NCBI RefSeq assembly: GCF_001676875.1
Contig: NZ_JYKA01000010.1
Coordinates: 1 to 64,000, forward strand
Direction of reading: 5' to 3'
From: Chromobacterium subtsugae
GTDB taxonomy: Bacteria > Pseudomonadota > Gammaproteobacteria > Burkholderiales > Chromobacteriaceae
Length of the DNA: 64,000 bases
In this document: in pieces, positions 6,234-37,670 of the stretch
Position numbering within the stretch: the stretch's first letter is position 1
How the letters are laid out: the number at the start of each line of letters is the position of its first letter
Translations under genes and position numbers: made by a program
Notes under the pieces: model-generated
Database searches by the model: none
What the model saw: only the letters and a program-made list of their open reading frames with translations
Told to the model about the DNA's origin: nothing

Positions 6234-6587
6234 ATGGCCGATGATGCTGCAATGAACGGTAGAGGTGCACGAATCCGAGAGGAAAGAATGGCGCGAAAGT
6301 GGTCGCAGACCACCCTGGCGCGCAAGGTCGGCGTCAGCCGCGGAACGATTTCCGACTTGGAAAATGACAACGTACAGGGCACAACGCACATCCTGGACCT
6401 CGCCAAAGCGCTGAACCTGACCCCGCAATACATTGAAGACGGCAAAGGATCGCGCCGCCCGGAGCCTACAGCAAGCGCGCCGTATGTCGCCGCCAGCTCC
6501 CTTGAGGATTTGGCAGAGAAGCTGCTGGACAAAGGGCCTGATGAGGTTTGGCAGCTAATCCAGCTGCTATTAACCACCAAACGCTAA
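6234..6587 (+). CDS. Xre-family repressor (second repressor of the immunity region)
   Basis: 117 aa from this ATG; the ATG at 6252 is also possible. The frame extends further upstream but would run into the terminator. The helix-turn-helix is RGARIREERMARKWSQTTLARKVGVSRGTISDLE in parts: Q (WSQ), LARKVGVS and TISDLEN. The C-terminal tail YVAASSLEDLAEKL..KGPDEVW is a clear paralogue of the tail of the CI-type repressor at 7840-8205. No peptidase domain, so it is not SOS-cleavable. It sits 67 bp before the LuxR-type gene and may regulate it. Confidence 0.75.
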   Translation: MADDAAMNGRGARIREERMARKWSQTTLARKVGVSRGTISDLENDNVQGTTHILDLAKALNLTPQYIEDGKGSRRPEPTASAPYVAASSLEDLAEKLLDKGPDEVWQLIQLLLTTKR

Positions 6588-6654: not shown

Positions 6655-7410
6655 ATGACTAAATCCATCAGCAATCTGCCGGAGGTCCTGGAGCTGTTCC
6701 AGACCAAGCCCGGCTCCGCCGTCTACCTGACGGCCGTTATGCGGCGCATGCTGCTCAAGGTTCGCACGCAACAGGATCTGCACGCCGCGCTGGCGATGAT
6801 CAAGGTCATCTCGGACGCGCCCACCATCCTGGTAGCGTTTTGCGCGGACAGCGGCCTGCAGCCGTCCACCACCATGAACCTCGGCTGGAGTGAGGGGTGG
6901 CTCAGCCGGTATGCCGCGCGGGCCTATCACGAGGTCGACCCCATCGCCTCCGCCCTACCCGGCGTGGCGGTGCCCTGGTCGCACCACCTGATCGGCAAGG
7001 TCAGTCCAAACGAGAAATTCCGGGCGTACTTGCGCGATTGCAGCCGATTCGGCATGGACTACGGCATGTCCTACGTCGCCGAATACAACGATTGCCGCAT
7101 CGTCCTGTCGATGATCGGCAAGCACGTGGAGCAGGATCTGGAGCTGCGCCACACCCTCGAGCTGCTATGCCCCGATGTCACCGACGTCGCCTACCGAGTT
7201 TTGGCCGGCCAGCGGGCTACTTCCAAATTGGAAAAAAATCAGCAAATTCTGATAGACCTGATCTGTAACCAAGGGCTTAAAAAAACCGAGGTCGCAGCCG
7301 CCCTAGGCATGACTAATCGTGGGGTCGACTATCACTTAAAACAGCTGATGACCCTTTACGGGGCGCGGACTGTGGAGCAACTCATGTACAGATTTGGTGC
7401 CTGTGAGTAG
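6655..7410 (+). CDS. LuxR-type quorum-sensing receptor and regulator (phage-encoded, no partner synthase seen)
   Basis: 251 aa, the usual LuxR length. The autoinducer-binding domain (about 30-180) keeps all six residues conserved in acyl-homoserine-lactone receptors. These are W and Y in GWLSRY, D and P in HEVDPIA, W in VPWSHH, and the Gly of the DYGMS stretch. The C-terminal helix-turn-helix (about 195-245) reads KKTEVAAALGMTNRGVDYHL. A GGGGAGG ribosome site lies 7 bp before the ATG. No LuxI gene lies nearby, so it should sense host- or neighbour-made signal. It lies between two repressor genes in the phage immunity region and upstream of a 20-bp palindrome and a small gene, suggesting it ties lysis to cell density. 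Confidence 0.9.
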   Translation: MTKSISNLPEVLELFQTKPGSAVYLTAVMRRMLLKVRTQQDLHAALAMIKVISDAPTILVAFCADSGLQPSTTMNLGWSEGWLSRYAARAYHEVDPIASALPGVAVPWSHHLIGKVSPNEKFRAYLRDCSRFGMDYGMSYVAEYNDCRIVLSMIGKHVEQDLELRHTLELLCPDVTDVAYRVLAGQRATSKLEKNQQILIDLICNQGLKKTEVAAALGMTNRGVDYHLKQLMTLYGARTVEQLMYRFGACE

Positions 7411-7430
7411 CATGAATTTTGCTCATTCTA

Positions 7431-7450
7431 TTTCAATCAATTGATTGAAA
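7431..7450. promoter_or_regulatory. 20-bp perfect palindrome, candidate lux-type box
   Basis: TTTCAATCAATTGATTGAAA is its own reverse complement. It lies 20 bp after the LuxR-type gene and its last six bases (TTGAAA) form the -35 of the promoter at 7445-7473. That puts its centre about 40 bp before the expected start, close to the -42.5 position used by LuxR activators. LuxR sites are typically 18- to 20-bp palindromes. Confidence 0.6.
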
Positions 7451-7473
7451 ACTACGTAGAAATACGCATACAT
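7445..7473 (+). promoter_or_regulatory. Promoter of the 69-aa gene
   Basis: -35 TTGAAA (7445-7450), 17-bp spacer, -10 ATACAT (7468-7473). The weak -10 and the overlapping palindrome fit an activator-dependent promoter. It would give a leader of about 110 bases before the gene at 7592. Confidence 0.5.
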
Positions 7474-7479
7474 CGTTTT

Positions 7480-7496
7480 ACTTCCGATTCGGAAGT
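7480..7496. repeat. 17-bp inverted repeat at the predicted transcription start
   Basis: ACTTCCGA-T-TCGGAAGT is a perfect palindrome around one base. It coincides with the predicted start of transcription from the 7445 promoter, where a repressor could block it; alternatively it forms a 5' hairpin in the mRNA. Confidence 0.5.
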
Positions 7497-7591
7497 GACC
7501 GTTTGTCTAGTCAGTGGGAAAATTTACAGACAACGACATGACGCCCATGCCGGCGCCGGACAAACGCTCGCCACACGAAACGGAGTAGGTT

Positions 7592-7801
7592 ATGAGTTGC
7601 AGCAGCAGTACCGCAGAACCTTGCATTCACACCGAAAATTGCCACCACTACAGGCCCGATGATGCGGCCAGAGGCCCCCGGCGGGCGTTCCTAAGCCTTG
7701 AAATCGATGAGCATGGCAAGCTGAAACTCATCCATTTTGGTGAGGTGCGATCATTGCTGCATGCGCTGAAGGAAGTATTTGCCAGGGATGGCAAGATTTG
7801 A
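7592..7801 (+). CDS. 69-aa protein downstream of the LuxR-type gene (candidate antirepressor)
   Basis: MSCSSSTAEPCIHTENCHHY... has a Cys/His-rich N-terminus (three Cys, three His in 20 residues) and a soluble C-terminal half (AFLSLEIDEHGKLKLIHFGEVRSLLHALKEVF). A GGAG site precedes the ATG. No family recognised. It is the only gene between the lux-box-like palindrome and the terminator facing the repressor gene. By analogy with Qtip of phage VP882, it is a candidate repressor inactivator; this is inference from position only. Confidence 0.6.
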   Translation: MSCSSSTAEPCIHTENCHHYRPDDAARGPRRAFLSLEIDEHGKLKLIHFGEVRSLLHALKEVFARDGKI

Positions 7802-7813
7802 AACGGACGAGAT

Positions 7814-7840
7814 AAAAAGGCGACTGAGAAGTCGCCTTTT
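7814..7840. terminator. Bidirectional terminator between the 69-aa gene and the repressor
   Basis: AAAAGGCGACT and AGTCGCCTTTT form an 11-bp perfect stem with a short loop and T-runs in both directions. It ends the rightward 69-aa transcript and the leftward repressor transcript; the repressor stop codon lies within its edge. Confidence 0.8.
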
Positions 7841-8205
7841 TAGTTGGTGAACTTGTCGCTGTTATCTGCCAAGCCCTTGATCACCTCAAGCACCGCATCC
7901 GGGCCTTTGGCCTTGATCTGTCTTATCAGTTCTTCAACGGAACTGGCTTCCACGTACCCACCTGCAGACGGCTGCATCTCGCCCCGCCCAAACGCAAGCC
8001 ACTCTGCGCTGACATTCAATGCGCGGGCCACTTTGTAGAGGTTTTCACCCTCAATCCCCGCATTCGGATTGTTCATCCACTTGTACGCCGCAGGGCGTGA
8101 CACGCCCACCTGGATCGCCAGCCAGTTGGGTGTTTTTTTGCTTCCGGTTTGCACGCTCAAAGCCTCAAGGGCCTTGCGTATCCGGGTTCCAAGAGTGTTT
8201 TCCAT
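7840..8205 (-). CDS. Short CI-type repressor without a cleavage domain
   Basis: 121 aa from the ATG at 8205. Upstream codons in the frame cross the operators and the divergent promoter, so they were excluded. The N-terminal helix-turn-helix contains NWLAIQVGVSRPAAYKWMN and LYKVARALNVSAEWLAFG. The C-terminal tail (YVEASSVEELIRQI..KGPDAVLEVI) matches that of the Xre protein at 6234-6587. The S24/LexA peptidase domain of lambda CI is absent, so RecA-driven self-cleavage is not expected. It has no ribosome site and probably makes a leaderless or nearly leaderless mRNA, as lambda cI does from pRM. It should bind the AACCATGGTT operators. Confidence 0.85.
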   Translation of the reverse strand: MENTLGTRIRKALEALSVQTGSKKTPNWLAIQVGVSRPAAYKWMNNPNAGIEGENLYKVARALNVSAEWLAFGRGEMQPSAGGYVEASSVEELIRQIKAKGPDAVLEVIKGLADNSDKFTN

Positions 8206-8208
8206 GTC

Positions 8209-8267
8209 AACCAAGGTTAGCGGAATTTTCGCAAACTCAGGATTGCACTTGATGTAAACCATGGTTA
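8209..8267. promoter_or_regulatory. Operator cluster OR between repressor and cro
   Basis: AACCATGGTT at 8257-8266 (perfect) and AACCAAGGTT at 8209-8218 (one mismatch) are centred 48 bp apart. A degenerate third site, AAACTCAGGATT, lies between them at 8233-8244, giving about 24-bp spacing. The core is the same as at OL (4193-4248), which identifies the repressor's targets. Confidence 0.75.
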
Positions 8268-8271
8268 TCAT
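8243..8271 (+). promoter_or_regulatory. Rightward promoter pR
   Basis: -35 TTGCAC (8243-8248), 17-bp spacer, -10 TATCAT (8266-8271). The perfect operator lies across the spacer and the first base of the -10. Transcription should begin near 8278, practically at the cro start codon. Confidence 0.7.
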
Positions 8272-8278
8272 TCCCAGC

Positions 8279-8491
8279 ATGAGAACAGCTATCGTTGTGA
8301 CGTACTTCGGGGATGGCCGTGGGGTCAAGTCCCGAATCGCTAAATCGCTCGGGGTCTCCACAGCGGCAGTTGCCAAGTGGGGAGAGCTAGTGCCTGACGG
8401 AAGTGCGTATCAGCTGATCAGGCGTTTCCCAGAGCTTGACCGCATGGACAAGGAAGACTGGGCAAAGTCCCCTGGTTCGCGGCCTGAGTGA
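8279..8491 (+). CDS. cro: Cro-like repressor
   Basis: 70 aa. MRTAIVVTYFGDGRGVKSRIAKSLGVSTAAVAKWGELVPDGSAYQLIRRF has the YdaS/Cro pattern: short, with the helix-turn-helix KSRIAKSLGVSTAAVAKWG. An in-frame ATG at 8261 lies inside the operator and upstream of the transcription start, so 8279 was chosen. There is no ribosome site, so translation is probably leaderless. Divergent from the CI-type repressor and expected to compete for the same operators. Confidence 0.8.
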   Translation: MRTAIVVTYFGDGRGVKSRIAKSLGVSTAAVAKWGELVPDGSAYQLIRRFPELDRMDKEDWAKSPGSRPE

Positions 8492-8538: not shown

Positions 8539-8964
8539 ATGCCCATGAACTGGCGGGACGCGGCACACAAGACCGTGCACAGCGCGGGCGGCTCAAAGGT
8601 CATCGCCGAGCGCATGGGCGGCTATGCCGGCGTGATCCGGGCCAAAGCCAACCCGGATGACAACTCCAGATGGTTCGACATGCAGGAGATGGTCGAGCTG
8701 ATGAGCCTGACCAACGATCACAGGATGCTGGAGGCCCTGGCAGATGAGTTCGGCTACATGCTGACCTCGGTGCCTGAGGAGATCGACTCCGCCGACCGCG
8801 GCCTGATGCAGATGATCTCGGACAGCCTCAAGGGACACGACGGCGAGGCGGAGAAGCGCCGCGGCTTGGCCCAGTTGAAGGGGCACGCTGGTGCCGCCCT
8901 GCGCCGGAAGATCAACAAGCTGCAGTCATTCCTGGCCGACCTGGCCCAGTTGACCGATGACTGA
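8539..8964 (+). CDS. CII-like regulator (Phage_CP76 type)
   Basis: 141 aa, third gene position after cI and cro, as in lambda. The N-terminus MNWRDAAHKTVHSAGGSKVIAERMG and the segment ANPDDNSRWFDMQEMVELMSLT match the CII/CP76 family of phage regulatory proteins that activate lysogeny promoters. An AAGGA ribosome site precedes the ATG. It overlaps the methyltransferase gene by 8 bp. Confidence 0.75.
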   Translation: MPMNWRDAAHKTVHSAGGSKVIAERMGGYAGVIRAKANPDDNSRWFDMQEMVELMSLTNDHRMLEALADEFGYMLTSVPEEIDSADRGLMQMISDSLKGHDGEAEKRRGLAQLKGHAGAALRRKINKLQSFLADLAQLTDD

Positions 8965-30731: not shown

Positions 30732-31247
30732 ATGAACGAACTGATTGTTTCGAACTTCAACGACTTCGTAATGCTGGCCGGCGACAAGATCGTGACCGAT
30801 AGCCGGCGCGTGGCCAAGGCCTTTGGCAAGCGGCACGACAACGTGTTGCGCGCCGTACGCCAACTTGCCGCAGAGTCGGGCGCATGGGGTCTACTCAATT
30901 TTGAGGAGGCCACCTACCTGGATGAACAGAACGGCCAGCGGTACGACTGCTACCAGATGACCAAGGACGGATTCGTGTTGTTGGTGATGGGCTTCACCGG
31001 CCGGAAGGCGCTGGACGTCAAGATCGGCTACATCAACGCCTTCAACGCCATGGCCGAACAGTTGAAGCGCCGCGACCTGGGCCTGTGGCAACAGATGCAG
31101 GAGCTGATCGCGCGCGAAGTGGAATCGAAGGTGCGAGCCTCGTTCGGCTCGCGCCTGATGCTGGAGAGGAAGCGCGAGATCCCGAGGCTGGAGTCGGAGC
31201 GGTTCCTGCTGGAAGGTGCGATCCAGCCCTCGCTGCTGCTGAACTGA
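30732..31247 (+). CDS. Rha-family phage antirepressor/regulator
   Basis: 171 aa. The N-terminal Rha domain reads TDSRRVAKAFGKRHDNVLRAVRQL and YQMTKDGFVLLVMGFTGRKALDVKIGYINAFNAME-like in separate blocks, the definitive Rha pattern. The C-terminal part is helical and basic. Rha proteins interfere with prophage regulation and may act as antirepressors. It sits at the edge of an Arc/Mnt-type regulatory region. Confidence 0.88.
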   Translation: MNELIVSNFNDFVMLAGDKIVTDSRRVAKAFGKRHDNVLRAVRQLAAESGAWGLLNFEEATYLDEQNGQRYDCYQMTKDGFVLLVMGFTGRKALDVKIGYINAFNAMAEQLKRRDLGLWQQMQELIAREVESKVRASFGSRLMLERKREIPRLESERFLLEGAIQPSLLLN

Positions 31248-31256
31248 TCGACGAAA

Positions 31257-31727
31257 CTATGGCTTAATCGGGTCTCTTGATATGACATAGTCGGGTACGC
31301 CGTCTTCTGCATATTTCTGCATGAGTGCACGCACCTGGGATAGCTGTGATTCTGTGATGTCAATTGAAGATTCTGATACGAACTCTGCCATGCTTGCCGT
31401 ACCCTCTAGAAACCTAGCCATGCTGGGCGCGAGAGCCCCATCGCTAATTCCGTCACGTAGTAACAGAACAGACTTGGCAAGGATTTGGGCTGTCTTTATA
31501 TAGGAAATTGCAACACTGTCCGAATAGGAAACGCGCTCCTCCATCTTGCTTAGTGTCTTTGCAAGATCATTAACGATCTTGTCATCGGACCTATTGAATG
31601 ACATGTCCAGTCTTTCGACGATTTCAGCGTTTTTGGACTTGCTTGTCGCCTTTGCTGACTCAGTGAGCCTCTCATCAAGCGGAGTCGGGATGCGGAGGGT
31701 GATCCGCGTGTATCCGTCATCAGACAT
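31257..31727 (-). CDS. Arc-family ribbon-helix-helix repressor
   Basis: 156 aa from the ATG at 31727. Residues about 5-45 form the Arc fold (YTRITLRIPTPLDERLTESAKATSKSKNAEIVERL). The remaining 110 residues are helical and unlike Arc (53 aa), perhaps an oligomerisation domain. Divergent from another Arc-like gene at 31824, with operators between. It ends 9 bp after the Rha gene, tail to tail. Confidence 0.8.
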   Translation of the reverse strand: MSDDGYTRITLRIPTPLDERLTESAKATSKSKNAEIVERLDMSFNRSDDKIVNDLAKTLSKMEERVSYSDSVAISYIKTAQILAKSVLLLRDGISDGALAPSMARFLEGTASMAEFVSESSIDITESQLSQVRALMQKYAEDGVPDYVISRDPIKP

Positions 31728-31741
31728 ACGGCACCATTTTC

Positions 31742-31808
31742 GTGTCAAAAGTTATTGACACCATTATAGTGCCGCACTACCATAGAGTCACGACACCAAA
31801 ATAGTGTC
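31742..31808. promoter_or_regulatory. Divergent promoters and operators of an immI-like switch
   Basis: Rightward promoter: TTGACA (31755-31760), 17 bp, TACCAT (31778-31783). Leftward -10: TATAAT (31768-31763 on the minus strand). Operators: GTGTCAA/TTGACAC (31742-31748 with 31755-31761) and GACAC/GTGTC (31792-31796 with 31804-31808). The interlocked promoters should be mutually exclusive. Confidence 0.65.
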
Positions 31809-31823
31809 AAAACATGGGAGGAC

Positions 31824-32000
31824 ATGGTGAAAGAAGAGCTGAACTACGTATGGAGGACTCAGATCCGCTTCCCCAAGAAGGCGGAGGATTGGGTCAAGAA
31901 CCGAGCAGCAAGTCAGTATCGTAGCGCGAACTCGGTACTACTTGATCTGGTTATGAAGGAGATTCAACGAGAGGAGGAGCAACTTGACAAGGCAGCCTGA
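31824..32000 (+). CDS. 58-aa Arc/Mnt-like repressor
   Basis: MVKEELNYVWRTQIRFPKKAEDWVKNRA... is almost exactly Arc-sized. The strand TQIRFP followed by two helices (EDWVKNRAAS; SANSVLLDLVMKEIQ) is the ribbon-helix-helix pattern. GGGAGG lies upstream of the ATG. It opens the rightward operon that includes the KilA-type antirepressor at 32507. Confidence 0.75.
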   Translation: MVKEELNYVWRTQIRFPKKAEDWVKNRAASQYRSANSVLLDLVMKEIQREEEQLDKAA

Positions 32001-32094
32001 AGCGACCGGCCCAGAAATGGTTGAAGCCCCAACAGCGGGAACTGTTGAGGCTTCGGTATCGAACATCCTGAACGCAATTCAAGGAAAATTCGCT

Positions 32095-32334
32095 ATGAAA
32101 TCTAGCACACTCACCTCGCCTGTTCAAGTTCTGGCGGACAGTGTCGAGTCCCTCGACCTCATCACCGTCCAACTGGACGATCTGCGCACCCTGATGAGCG
32201 CCATCGCCCGCCTCTCTGCTGACGATGCCGACATCCGCGGCATCGCGATCCACGCCAAGGGGATCGCCGGGGGCCTGCACAACGACGCAGACGTACTGCG
32301 CGAGCAGATCCAAAACCACATTTTGGCCGCGTGA
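32095..32334 (+). CDS. 79-aa hypothetical protein
   Basis: MKSSTLTSPVQVLADSVESLDL... with an AAGGA ribosome site. Helical (TVQLDDLRTLMSAIARL). The same frame is open back to a TTG at 31984 inside the Arc-like gene, so a 116-aa form coupled to it is possible. Family unknown. Confidence 0.5.
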   Translation: MKSSTLTSPVQVLADSVESLDLITVQLDDLRTLMSAIARLSADDADIRGIAIHAKGIAGGLHNDADVLREQIQNHILAA

Positions 32335-32345
32335 GGAGAGGGATC

Positions 32346-32510
32346 ATGAACCACGAACAGGAACTCAAGCCCGTGGCAGCCTCTATCACGGTGAAGCTCT
32401 TCGATGACGGGACTTGCTCCCTGCAGTACTCCGGCGAGACCAATCGGCTATTGCTCGGCCTGCAACTCGCACTGAAAAACATGGAACGTAGCGAGGGGGA
32501 TGCCACATGA
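32346..32510 (+). CDS. 54-aa hypothetical protein
   Basis: MNHEQELKPVAASITVKLFDDGTCSL... starts 11 bp after the previous gene and its stop overlaps the next ATG by 4 bp. Beta-strand-like middle, helical end (NRLLLGLQLALKNMERS). Coupling to the antirepressor gene is the main evidence that it is real. Confidence 0.55.
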   Translation: MNHEQELKPVAASITVKLFDDGTCSLQYSGETNRLLLGLQLALKNMERSEGDAT

Positions 32511-33250
32511 ACCTGGTAACCATGAATGGCCAGCCCATGACCATGAGCAGCCGTGAGATCGCCGAGCTGTGCGAGAAAGAGCACAAGAACGTGATCCGTG
32601 ATATCCGTGTCATGCTTGATGAGCTGGGGGGTGGCTCAGATTTGAGCCATGTCCAGGAGAGCAAGGATCTACGCGGATATACATCCTCAATCAGCCTTCC
32701 CAAAGACCTTACCCTGACACTGATCGCCGGCTACAACGTCAGGCTGCGCAAACGTATCATTGACCGCTGGATGGAATTGGAACAGAAGGTGGCAGCCCCA
32801 GTCCTCCCCGACTTCCAAGACCCGGTGGCCGCGGCGCGCGCCTGGGCCGACCAGTTGGAGGGTCGGCAGATCGCCGAGCAGCAAAAAGTACTGCTGGAGC
32901 ACAAGGTCGCTGAACAGGCGCCCAAGGTGCAGTTCCACGATGACGTTGCCAACACCATCAACTGCCAGACCATGGACGAAGTTGCCAAGGAGTTGGGCAC
33001 GGGCCGCAACCGCCTCTATGCCTTCCTGAGGGAGAAAGGAGTGCTGATGCAAAGCAATGAGCCCTACCAGCGCTTCATAGATCAAGGCTACTTCCGTGTG
33101 ATCCCCTCTCCCTGGAGGAAGCGCGGCGAGCTTCAGATGGGGCAGAAAACCGTGGTCACCGGCAAAGGCATGACCTACATCCACAGGCTGATCAACAACC
33201 TCGCGGTTGAGCTGCCTGCAAATGATCGACTGGCGGAGAGGTCAGCATGA
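32507..33250 (+). CDS. Antirepressor with Rha-type N-terminus and KilA-C/ANT C-terminus
   Basis: 247 aa. N-terminal MTMSSREIAELCEKEHKNVIRDIRVML is the Rha/AntA-like DNA-contact part. The C-terminal ANT (KilAC) domain contains QFHDDVANTINCQTMDEVAKELGTGRNRLYAFLREKGVLM and GYFRVIPSPWRKRGELQMGQKTVVTGKGMTYIHRLI in two blocks. ANT proteins bind and inactivate phage repressors, as Ant of P22 does. Under the Arc-type operator region, so normally silent in the lysogen. Confidence 0.88.
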   Translation: MNLVTMNGQPMTMSSREIAELCEKEHKNVIRDIRVMLDELGGGSDLSHVQESKDLRGYTSSISLPKDLTLTLIAGYNVRLRKRIIDRWMELEQKVAAPVLPDFQDPVAAARAWADQLEGRQIAEQQKVLLEHKVAEQAPKVQFHDDVANTINCQTMDEVAKELGTGRNRLYAFLREKGVLMQSNEPYQRFIDQGYFRVIPSPWRKRGELQMGQKTVVTGKGMTYIHRLINNLAVELPANDRLAERSA

Positions 33251-36584: not shown

Positions 36585-37670
36585 ATGGATGACCTCACCC
36601 TTGTTACCAACGGCCAGCGTATTTCCGGTTGGACCACCGTCAATGTTGTGCGCGGAATTGAGCGCTTCCCATCCGGCTTCCAGATCGGCATGACCGAGCA
36701 CTACCCGAAAGAATTTGGGCGCTTTTTGCTGAATCCGGGCGACCCCGTCCAGGTGCTTCTGGGCAGCGATATCGTAGTGACGGGCTACGTGGATGATTTC
36801 ACTCCCGCACTGTCCTCCGGGGCGCACTCCATAGCTGTCAGCGGCCGCGGCAAATGCCAGGACCTGGTCGACTGCAGCCACTTTTTCAACGGCTGCCAGA
36901 TGACCAACATCACCCCGCTGGCCATGGCCATCCAGTTGGCCACGCCCTATGGCATCGATGTGGTGTCGGATGTCGGCGCCGGCGAGGTGGTGCCGGTATG
37001 GCAGCTGCCGTGGGGGGAGACCCCTTACAACATCCTGGAGCCTGTGGCGCGCAACAGCCAGATGCTGGTCTACGAAAATCCGGATGGCTCGTTGAGGCTG
37101 TCGCAGGCGATGCGGGCCTCTGCCGGCGTTCGCTACCCGGTGGTGGCGGAGGGGGTCAACATCGAGTCCATCACCATGCGCTGGTCCATGGCGCAGCGCT
37201 TCAGCCAGTACATCGGCCGGAGCTTGCCAATGGACATGATGAGCGACGTGGGGGTCGGTCCTGACGTTGTGGCAGTGGTGAATGACCCCGGCGTGCCGCG
37301 ACTGCGCGTACGCAGCATCATCGCTGAGACAGGAGACACATCTGATTTCCAGATCACCAAGGCGCGTGTCAACTGGGAAGCCGTCCGCCGTGCTGGTCGC
37401 AGTTCACAGGCAAACGTAACCGTGGATAGCTGGCGAGACGAGGCCGGCAACCTGTGGCAGCCCAACACGCTGGTGACGCTGGTGGCGCCGACGGTGCATG
37501 TGCCGCGCGCGAACTGGCTGATTTCTGAGGTGGCCTACCGCCGTGACGAGACCGGCACGCATGCCGACCTGACGCTGATGCCGCCGGAGGCATTCGCCGT
37601 CCAGCCCGTCAACCTGTTCCCGACCATGCGCGACGTTGTCGCCGGCGCTGCCCAAGGAGGCAATGGATGA
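36585..37670 (+). CDS. Baseplate hub protein (Mu gp44/gpP-like)
   Basis: 361 aa. N-terminal LVTNGQRISGWTTVNVVRGIERFPSGFQIGMTE in two parts, VTGYVDDFTPALSSGAHSI and SGRGKCQDLVDCS are the gp44/phage late control D-like pattern. VARNSQMLVYENPDGSLRL continues it. Forms the hub onto which the spike is built. Confidence 0.88.
   Translation: MDDLTLVTNGQRISGWTTVNVVRGIERFPSGFQIGMTEHYPKEFGRFLLNPGDPVQVLLGSDIVVTGYVDDFTPALSSGAHSIAVSGRGKCQDLVDCSHFFNGCQMTNITPLAMAIQLATPYGIDVVSDVGAGEVVPVWQLPWGETPYNILEPVARNSQMLVYENPDGSLRLSQAMRASAGVRYPVVAEGVNIESITMRWSMAQRFSQYIGRSLPMDMMSDVGVGPDVVAVVNDPGVPRLRVRSIIAETGDTSDFQITKARVNWEAVRRAGRSSQANVTVDSWRDEAGNLWQPNTLVTLVAPTVHVPRANWLISEVAYRRDETGTHADLTLMPPEAFAVQPVNLFPTMRDVVAGAAQGGNG

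Follow-up and report, generated by a model that had tools for sequence, protein, structure and literature searches.

How might a prophage be induced when its CI-type repressor lacks the self-cleavage domain? The question is raised by an immunity region on contig NZ_JYKA01000010.1 of Chromobacterium subtsugae (assembly GCF_001676875.1), of which positions 1 to 64,000 were analysed (the window). Here, a LuxR-type receptor gene precedes a gene for a 69-aa small protein, which converges on cI. We propose, with a probability of about 0.6, that this locus is a density-sensing induction cassette, in which an acyl-homoserine lactone (AHL) made by the host would act through LuxR to raise the small protein, leading to inactivation of CI and induction of the prophage. 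Its parts are as follows.

6234–6587, plus strand: XRE1, a Cro/CI-type helix-turn-helix (HTH) protein of 117 aa with a CI-like C-terminal tail (HTH_3, 5e-13)
6655–7410, plus strand: predicted LuxR-type AHL receptor, 251 aa (Pfam Autoind_bind, 4.9e-9, over cut-off)
7480–7496, unstranded: putative LuxR operator ACTTCCGATTCGGAAGT, ACTTCC-N5-GGAAGT (dyad score, arm conservation)
7495–7523, plus strand: promoter-like GTGACC (7495–7500), 17 bp, GAAAAT (7518–7523), at a position conserved in LuxR-type relatives
7592–7801, plus strand: 69-aa small protein with a CxHxxxCHH N-half and a predicted beta-beta-alpha C-half (family comparison, structure model)
7813–7842, unstranded: terminator-like hairpin separating the small gene from cI (-22.3 kcal/mol for 7800–7850, z -6.35)
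7840–8205, minus strand: CI-type repressor, 121 aa, HTH and helical tail, no peptidase (HTH_3 24.5 against a cut-off of 23)

From 6234 onwards the order is XRE1, luxR, dyad and promoter-like block, 69-aa gene, terminator, convergent cI, cro and a gene for a CII-like regulator; XRE1, luxR and the 69-aa gene are co-directional and converge on cI. XRE1 homologues begin at 6252. The window also encodes contractile-tailed phage proteins (terminase, portal, capsid, tail sheath, baseplate). The IMG/VR viral contig holding the locus spans 47,474 bases inside an assembly contig of 129,830 bases, which suggests an integrated prophage; one prophage end is unseen, as the viral stretch starts at base 1 of the assembly contig. 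SOS control was set aside, since the single CTGTN8ACAG match in the window, at 37042, is near the chance expectation of 0.63.

Receptor, small protein and repressor

The original prediction described a complete LuxR-type receptor with six conserved pocket residues lying between two repressor genes, and this description holds, with XRE1 upstream and CI downstream. Residues W82, Y86, D95, P96, W108 and G137, assigned as pocket positions from TraR, are all present and are identical in eight aligned LuxRs; the prophage LuxR is predicted to bind AHL. Its closest solved structure is CviR (3qp5, 9.8e-7), and it had no match in 50,697 phage records. In a tree that included 7 of 12 further relatives, those that yielded an open reading frame (ORF), the window-type prophage LuxRs group as a clade of their own with support 99/99, on which ground recent capture of a host gene was set aside; the LuxR of the Aeromonas phage ARM81ld is a long branch in this tree, and a second prophage LuxR group, described below, is not resolved as a clade.

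The 69-aa protein had no match in Pfam, NCBIfam or PHROGs, nor in the same phage records. A profile of its family matched no solved structure, and none of the 468 weak matches from a fold search of the protein reached E≤0.001. Seven aligned family members gave scattered single-member matches, the best to phrog_14414 (unknown function; 0.0016). The CxHxxxCHH motif suggests metal binding by the N-half; it reads CHY in L030, is altered in L045 and L091, and is missing in L046, L109 and L111 (L numbers denote viral contigs or loci). The C-half is predicted to form strand-strand-helix (residues 32–38, 44–50 and 52–66), with model pLDDT of 87–91 over residues 31–60 and 70 over 61–69 (mean 72.7, pTM 0.44). 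Downstream, hairpins were seen by eye at the equivalent place in six of seven relatives inspected; that at 7813–7842 is absent from the list of a consensus scanner. Read-through of the small-gene transcript into cI was set aside as a mechanism because this hairpin terminator lies between the two genes.

The facing repressor had been described as lacking the self-cleavage domain, and in the 121-aa CI we found an HTH match and no S24 peptidase domain; the same prediction of a palindrome, a promoter and a 69-aa gene ahead of it likewise stands, with a qualification on the promoter given below. The CI model has a pLDDT of 82.2, and six Acinetobacter phage records among the 50,697 match CI at about 34%. 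The XRE1 and CI repressors align in their C-terminal tails (A.S.E.L...KG..; 6252–6587 against 7840–8205), and mixed oligomers are possible because this tail is common to both.

A conserved dyad before the small gene

Two palindromes lie between luxR and the small gene: the putative operator and the following.

7431–7450, unstranded: perfect 20-bp palindrome TTTCAATCAATTGATTGAAA, not at the corresponding place in aligned relatives

The best and second-best palindrome scores were each equalled in 1 of 500 shuffles. The palindrome at 7431–7450 was rejected as the LuxR site for its lack of conservation. The 7480–7496 dyad runs into the -35-like GTGACC (7495–7500), and its centre would lie at about -42 if transcription started near 7530. 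Across LuxR-type loci, a conserved promoter-like block stands before the small gene with a dyad immediately upstream, and the dyad differs with the LuxR DNA-binding domain: it is ACTTCC-N5-GGAAGT in the window, L033 and L082, and TTACGATTTCTCGTAA in L032, while L034 has no clear dyad upstream of the block. In the second LuxR group, TAGACGAA[A/C]GTCTA occurs between luxR and the small ORF in eight of nine contigs, with one base changed in L154. The exact 7480–7496 site occurs once in the strain's own genome and in none of 18 other genomes searched (11 of the same genus; G018, home of L033, is not among the 18). A consensus promoter scanner did not list block 7495–7523, so the promoter call rests on conservation among relatives.

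The 7480–7496 dyad could alternatively be the terminator hairpin of luxR. We prefer an operator because the arms are kept while the centre varies (L033, L082), and because the dyad abuts the conserved promoter-like block. A conserved dyad in this position points indirectly to activation of the small gene by LuxR.

Recurrence of the module and exchange of the sensor

Thirteen viral contigs, that of the window among them, were found to carry the 69-aa family: nine have a LuxR gene upstream and four have a 106–132 aa XRE-type protein in its place. A homology search had been advised in order to see whether the 69-aa protein always travels with the receptor; it does not, given these four contigs. 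In all 11 viral contigs with the window-type LuxR clade, the small gene lies downstream (weakest match L091, 4.7e-4) and a convergent ORF of 121–199 aa occupies the cI position.

The second prophage LuxR group, reached through a member in the strain's own genome on contig C9, comprises nine viral contigs, the other eight being 51–54% identical. All nine carry a 53–57 aa ORF and a convergent ORF of 133–212 aa. Comparison by hhalign relates this small ORF to the C-half only of the 69-aa proteins, at E 1.6e-5 and with a score of 30.2, where none of 100 column shuffles exceeded 15.1. All 20 LuxR-bearing viral contigs found share one arrangement: facing the small gene, 13–47 bases from its stop, is a convergent ORF of 100 aa or more. 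Many of these contigs are near-identical; judged by eye, the first LuxR clade holds about four distinct clusters and the second group three. No S24 peptidase was found in ten repressor-position ORFs from relatives.

Within the bacterial family, the small-protein profile matched at least 8 of 61 genomes (two weakly, G041 and G033), and within the order at least 2 of 399, both from this family; at most 14 candidates per genome were scored in one profile search, and weak members may be missed. Window-clade LuxRs (above 400 bits; next best 194) occur in 3 of the 61 family genomes, all of the same genus. In a named genome collection, three of eight pattern matches to the small gene were confirmed as loci, all from Chromobacterium haemolyticum. 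Genus g7 has AHL synthase matches in none of ten genomes; in one of these, G041, the sensor slot of the module is occupied by an XRE protein. As both versions occur in Chromobacterium, AHL production alone does not decide what fills that slot. An intact XRE1 does not adjoin luxR in L033, L091 and L089, which makes the need for XRE doubtful. These comparisons show that the module recurs among Chromobacterium prophages.

Alternatively, the placement of LuxR and the small gene in the immunity region might be accidental and their function a different one, for instance superinfection exclusion or that of a host-behaviour moron. The 69-aa protein, with neither a family match nor a known small-protein function, would permit this, but the position, the convergent ORF and the co-variation set out below recur across two LuxR groups and the XRE-slot loci, and we regard a chance placement as very improbable.

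Some loci depart from the common layout. L033, L082 and L083 have two tandem short CI-like genes facing the small gene, and no XRE1 was found upstream of their luxR. In L047/L108, L113 and L104, no convergent CI was found, and the XRE1–XRE2 pairs are followed by a different small ORF, which in L047/L108 and in L113 is of VNLDLMED type; perhaps these represent a further output type. The strain itself has four prophages with versions of the module, on contigs C2, C9 (L150) and C21 (L035/L081) and on IMG/VR contig 2843400765_000004 (L111). Two carry LuxRs of different groups and two an XRE protein in the sensor slot.

Co-variation of the small protein with CI

Small protein and CI were compared by Mantel tests over 13 distinct loci, hand-chosen to drop near-identical copies; L108, L113 and L104 were omitted (no convergent CI found), and L080 and L077 entered the CI-swap comparison only. 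The C-half of the small protein tracks the CI tail (r 0.753, p 0.0001) and the CI HTH (r 0.724, p 0.0001), and its association with the tail persists given the HTH (partial r 0.416, p 0.0043). It does not co-vary with XRE1 (r 0.10, p 0.22; 11 loci) or with sensor type (r 0.006), and the N-half follows the CI tail weakly (0.194, p 0.084). Within the eight XRE-slot loci, the C-half correlates at 0.888 with the tail and at 0.312 (p 0.048) with the XRE-type protein in the sensor slot. For 9 of the 13 loci, small protein and CI tail have the same nearest neighbour; for L034, L033, L091 and L109 they do not. In the CI-swap comparison, L032, L077 and L080 have nearly the same small protein and CI tail and different CI HTH domains. 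These patterns suggest that small protein and CI form a matched output pair, with linkage perhaps causing part of the co-variation.

Including L111 with these three loci, the cI genes encode almost identical C-terminal tails on differing HTH domains (those of L077 and L111 being alike), and immunity specificity therefore seems to have been exchanged within cI.

Host signalling and known phage systems

An AHL synthase (PF00765) scored over cut-off in 19 of 19 same-genus genomes searched. The strain's own synthase adjoins a CviR-like LuxR on contig C4, and these host luxI and luxR genes are convergent and overlap by 80 bp, an arrangement published for csuI/csuR (PMC12114271). This is the sole PF00765 match of the genome; as the prophage has no luxI, its LuxR would read host density. 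The prophage receptor resembles the host CviI/CviR-type system in being LuxR-type in a genus with AHL synthases, but over 208 aa it shares 23% identity with the host receptor, and it belongs to a separate clade. The CsuR box reported for the host is CTGTCC-N4-GGACAG (PMC12114271), against the putative prophage operator ACTTCC-N5-GGAAGT. Published RNA sequencing of C. subtsugae at 9 h versus 18 h shows a prophage operon up more than 16-fold, five of its nine genes exceeding a log2 of 4 (PMC12114271). We consider this rise suggestive, though confounded by growth phase; the prophage concerned may or may not carry the present module.

The closest precedent is in the Aeromonas plasmid-like phages, in which XRE and AHL-bound LuxR are described as activating a small gene whose product inactivates CI (Silpe 2023, PMC10432266). 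The original prediction knew of no described system with this set of parts; in that it was mistaken, since XRE–LuxR–small-ORF modules inactivating CI had been published. As in the Apop and ARM81ld modules, an XRE gene is followed here by a LuxR-type gene with a small gene beside it; there the target is CI and the cue an AHL, C4-HSL, and luxR is optional among relatives, Shigella phages having xre only (PMC10432266). The window likewise holds, at 6655–7801, a transcription-factor gene adjoining a small-protein gene in a temperate phage, as in the induction modules of this type (Silpe 2023).

The differences from these modules are several. In Apop and ARM81ld the small gene is reported to be divergent from xre-luxR, whereas here it is co-directional with both and convergent with cI; those phages are linear and plasmid-like, and cIApop undergoes autoproteolysis on DNA damage (PMC10432266), whereas the CI here is short and without a peptidase. 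The ARM81ld small gene is far from cI; here it is next to it. XRE1 has no significant homology to the ARM81ld XRE, nor has the 69-aa protein to ARM81ld p35 (the presumed small-ORF product), and the two LuxRs are 27% identical over 169 aa. By sequence, then, the module differs from the published kind in gene order, repressor type, and XRE and small-protein sequences. No publication on the Chromobacterium module was found in the open-licence literature, among the matches listed.

Phage VP882 offers a second comparison. Its VqmA presumably acts through the small protein Qtip, which is other than the 69-aa protein, and its receptor family and ligand (DPO) differ from those considered here. Like the proposed cassette, VP882 uses a phage-encoded receptor to read a host autoinducer, with lysis as the outcome (PMC12324486).

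The integrated prophages of Phaeobacter inhibens also resemble the present case, in that a LuxR takes part in the lysis–lysogeny choice and modules are exchangeable, with no small protein–CI pair described in the text consulted (PMC13345283, preprint). There, AHL is described as driving lysogeny, which raises the opposite polarity for the Chromobacterium locus: the LuxR-driven small protein might stabilise lysogeny by helping CI or by blocking Cro or XRE1, and dense populations would keep the prophage silent. A co-repressor would be as compatible with the observed co-variation with CI as an antirepressor. The Phaeobacter phages, however, have their own luxI (PMC13345283), which the prophage here lacks; the characterised phage small proteins beside LuxR inactivate CI (PMC10432266). 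We therefore consider a lysogeny-promoting role unlikely and favour polarity towards lysis, by inference.

Proposed mechanism and alternatives

In the reading that we favour, the prophage LuxR would bind an AHL made by the Chromobacterium host with its own LuxI/LuxR, and the AHL-bound LuxR would bind the 7480–7496 dyad and activate the small gene. The beta-beta-alpha half of the small protein would recognise CI, probably at its C-terminal tail, and CI would be inactivated without cleavage, allowing expression of cro and the lytic genes. The sensor gene would be an exchangeable slot, filled by LuxR or an XRE-type regulator, with small protein and CI as the matched output. The predicted chain from AHL through LuxR and the 69-aa protein to the repressor fits the layout of 20 of 20 contigs, the dyad shared among LuxRs with similar DNA-binding domains and the CI co-variation; AHL binding, activation of the small gene, contact between small protein and CI, and the direction towards lysis are inferred.

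Induction need not depend on this cassette, as the window holds other antirepressor genes.

30732–31247, plus strand: Rha-like/antirepressor gene, rival inducer (phrog_518, 6e-59)
31257–31748, minus strand: Arc-like protein (phrog_7906, 8.5e-6; phrog_3178, 1.3e-5; best phrog_795, named partition protein, 2.4e-9)
32346–32510, plus strand: 54-aa ORF, a relative of the small protein's beta-beta-alpha half; overlaps the ant start (E 0.0029)
32507–33250, plus strand: Ant antirepressor, rival inducer (phrog_63, 1.9e-55)

Several observations weigh against the proposed cassette. Induction may not run through LuxR alone, given the Ant and Rha-like genes that the window holds; it was reasonable to predict that a repressor without self-cleavage needs another inducer, but these genes could supply one. 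The LuxR DNA-binding domain is divergent by sequence, its GerE match reaching 15.4 bits against a Pfam cut-off of 23.5, and it lacks the usual Glu. A scanner scores the 7480–7496 dyad as a terminator-like hairpin, and the small-protein model is poor in the N-half. The relatives' convergent ORFs are repressors by position: among ten scanned, an HTH was over the Pfam cut-off in four, below it in four and not found in two. The partial Mantel correlation of C-half with HTH given the tail is also positive (0.299, p 0.0106), and the five LuxR loci taken by themselves give no significant correlation (tail r 0.26, p 0.30; LuxR -0.55). Finally, linkage alone raises co-variation, as the small gene adjoins cI and their 3' ends are close. 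Linkage is less likely to be the sole cause, because the N-half, although near the tail, follows it much more weakly than the C-half tracks the HTH, which lies farther off; the N-half, however, is also the more conserved of the two.

Possibly, the small protein targets XRE1 or the Ant region, with CI inactivated mainly by Ant and the LuxR cassette as a side input. The Ant and Rha-like genes fit such a scheme, as do the small-protein relative immediately upstream of ant and the alignment of the XRE1 tail with that of CI. The lack of C-half/XRE1 co-variation argues the other way, as do LuxR-type loci without an intact XRE1 beside luxR (L033, L091), and we judge this scheme improbable. The relative before ant obtained its E of 0.0029 as a 59-aa ORF among 8759 ORFs, with none of 1000 shuffles as high; a weak small-protein match on an unrelated contig, L132 (E 0.0055), comes close to it in E.

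A broader proposal, which we hold tentatively and at slightly less than even odds, is a plug-in antirepressor system, in which a CI-matched beta-beta-alpha small-protein family would be the common output for different sensors, namely LuxRs of two groups, regulators of XRE type and, possibly, the same phage's Ant region. A single Chromobacterium strain would then carry four such prophages, each with its own input, which in two of them is an AHL receptor. If the density-sensing cassette operates as proposed, phage eavesdropping on AHL would not be confined to linear plasmid-like Aeromonas phages and would be a recurrent prophage trait in a classic AHL-producing genus. The small-protein family would be large enough for the study of repressor recognition and sensor exchange by phages, and competition among co-resident prophages with separate triggers would be directly testable in one strain.

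Neighbouring control genes

Beyond cI, the immunity region continues as follows.

8206–8278, unstranded: cI/cro intergenic region with AACCAAGGTTA and AACCATGGTTA (read by eye; like repeats in L030 and L031)
8279–8491, plus strand: Cro (P22_Cro, 3.3e-10 on 8261–8491; start taken from the L030 homologue)
8539–8964, plus strand: CII-like regulator, CP76 family (Phage_CP76, 3.7e-18)

The elements AACCAAGGTTA and AACCATGGTTA are probable CI/Cro operators. Farther along, a second control region of immI-like type lies within the tail genes at 31257–33250; it holds the Arc-like protein, perhaps its repressor, a short Arc-like ORF, the relative of the small-protein C-half and Ant.

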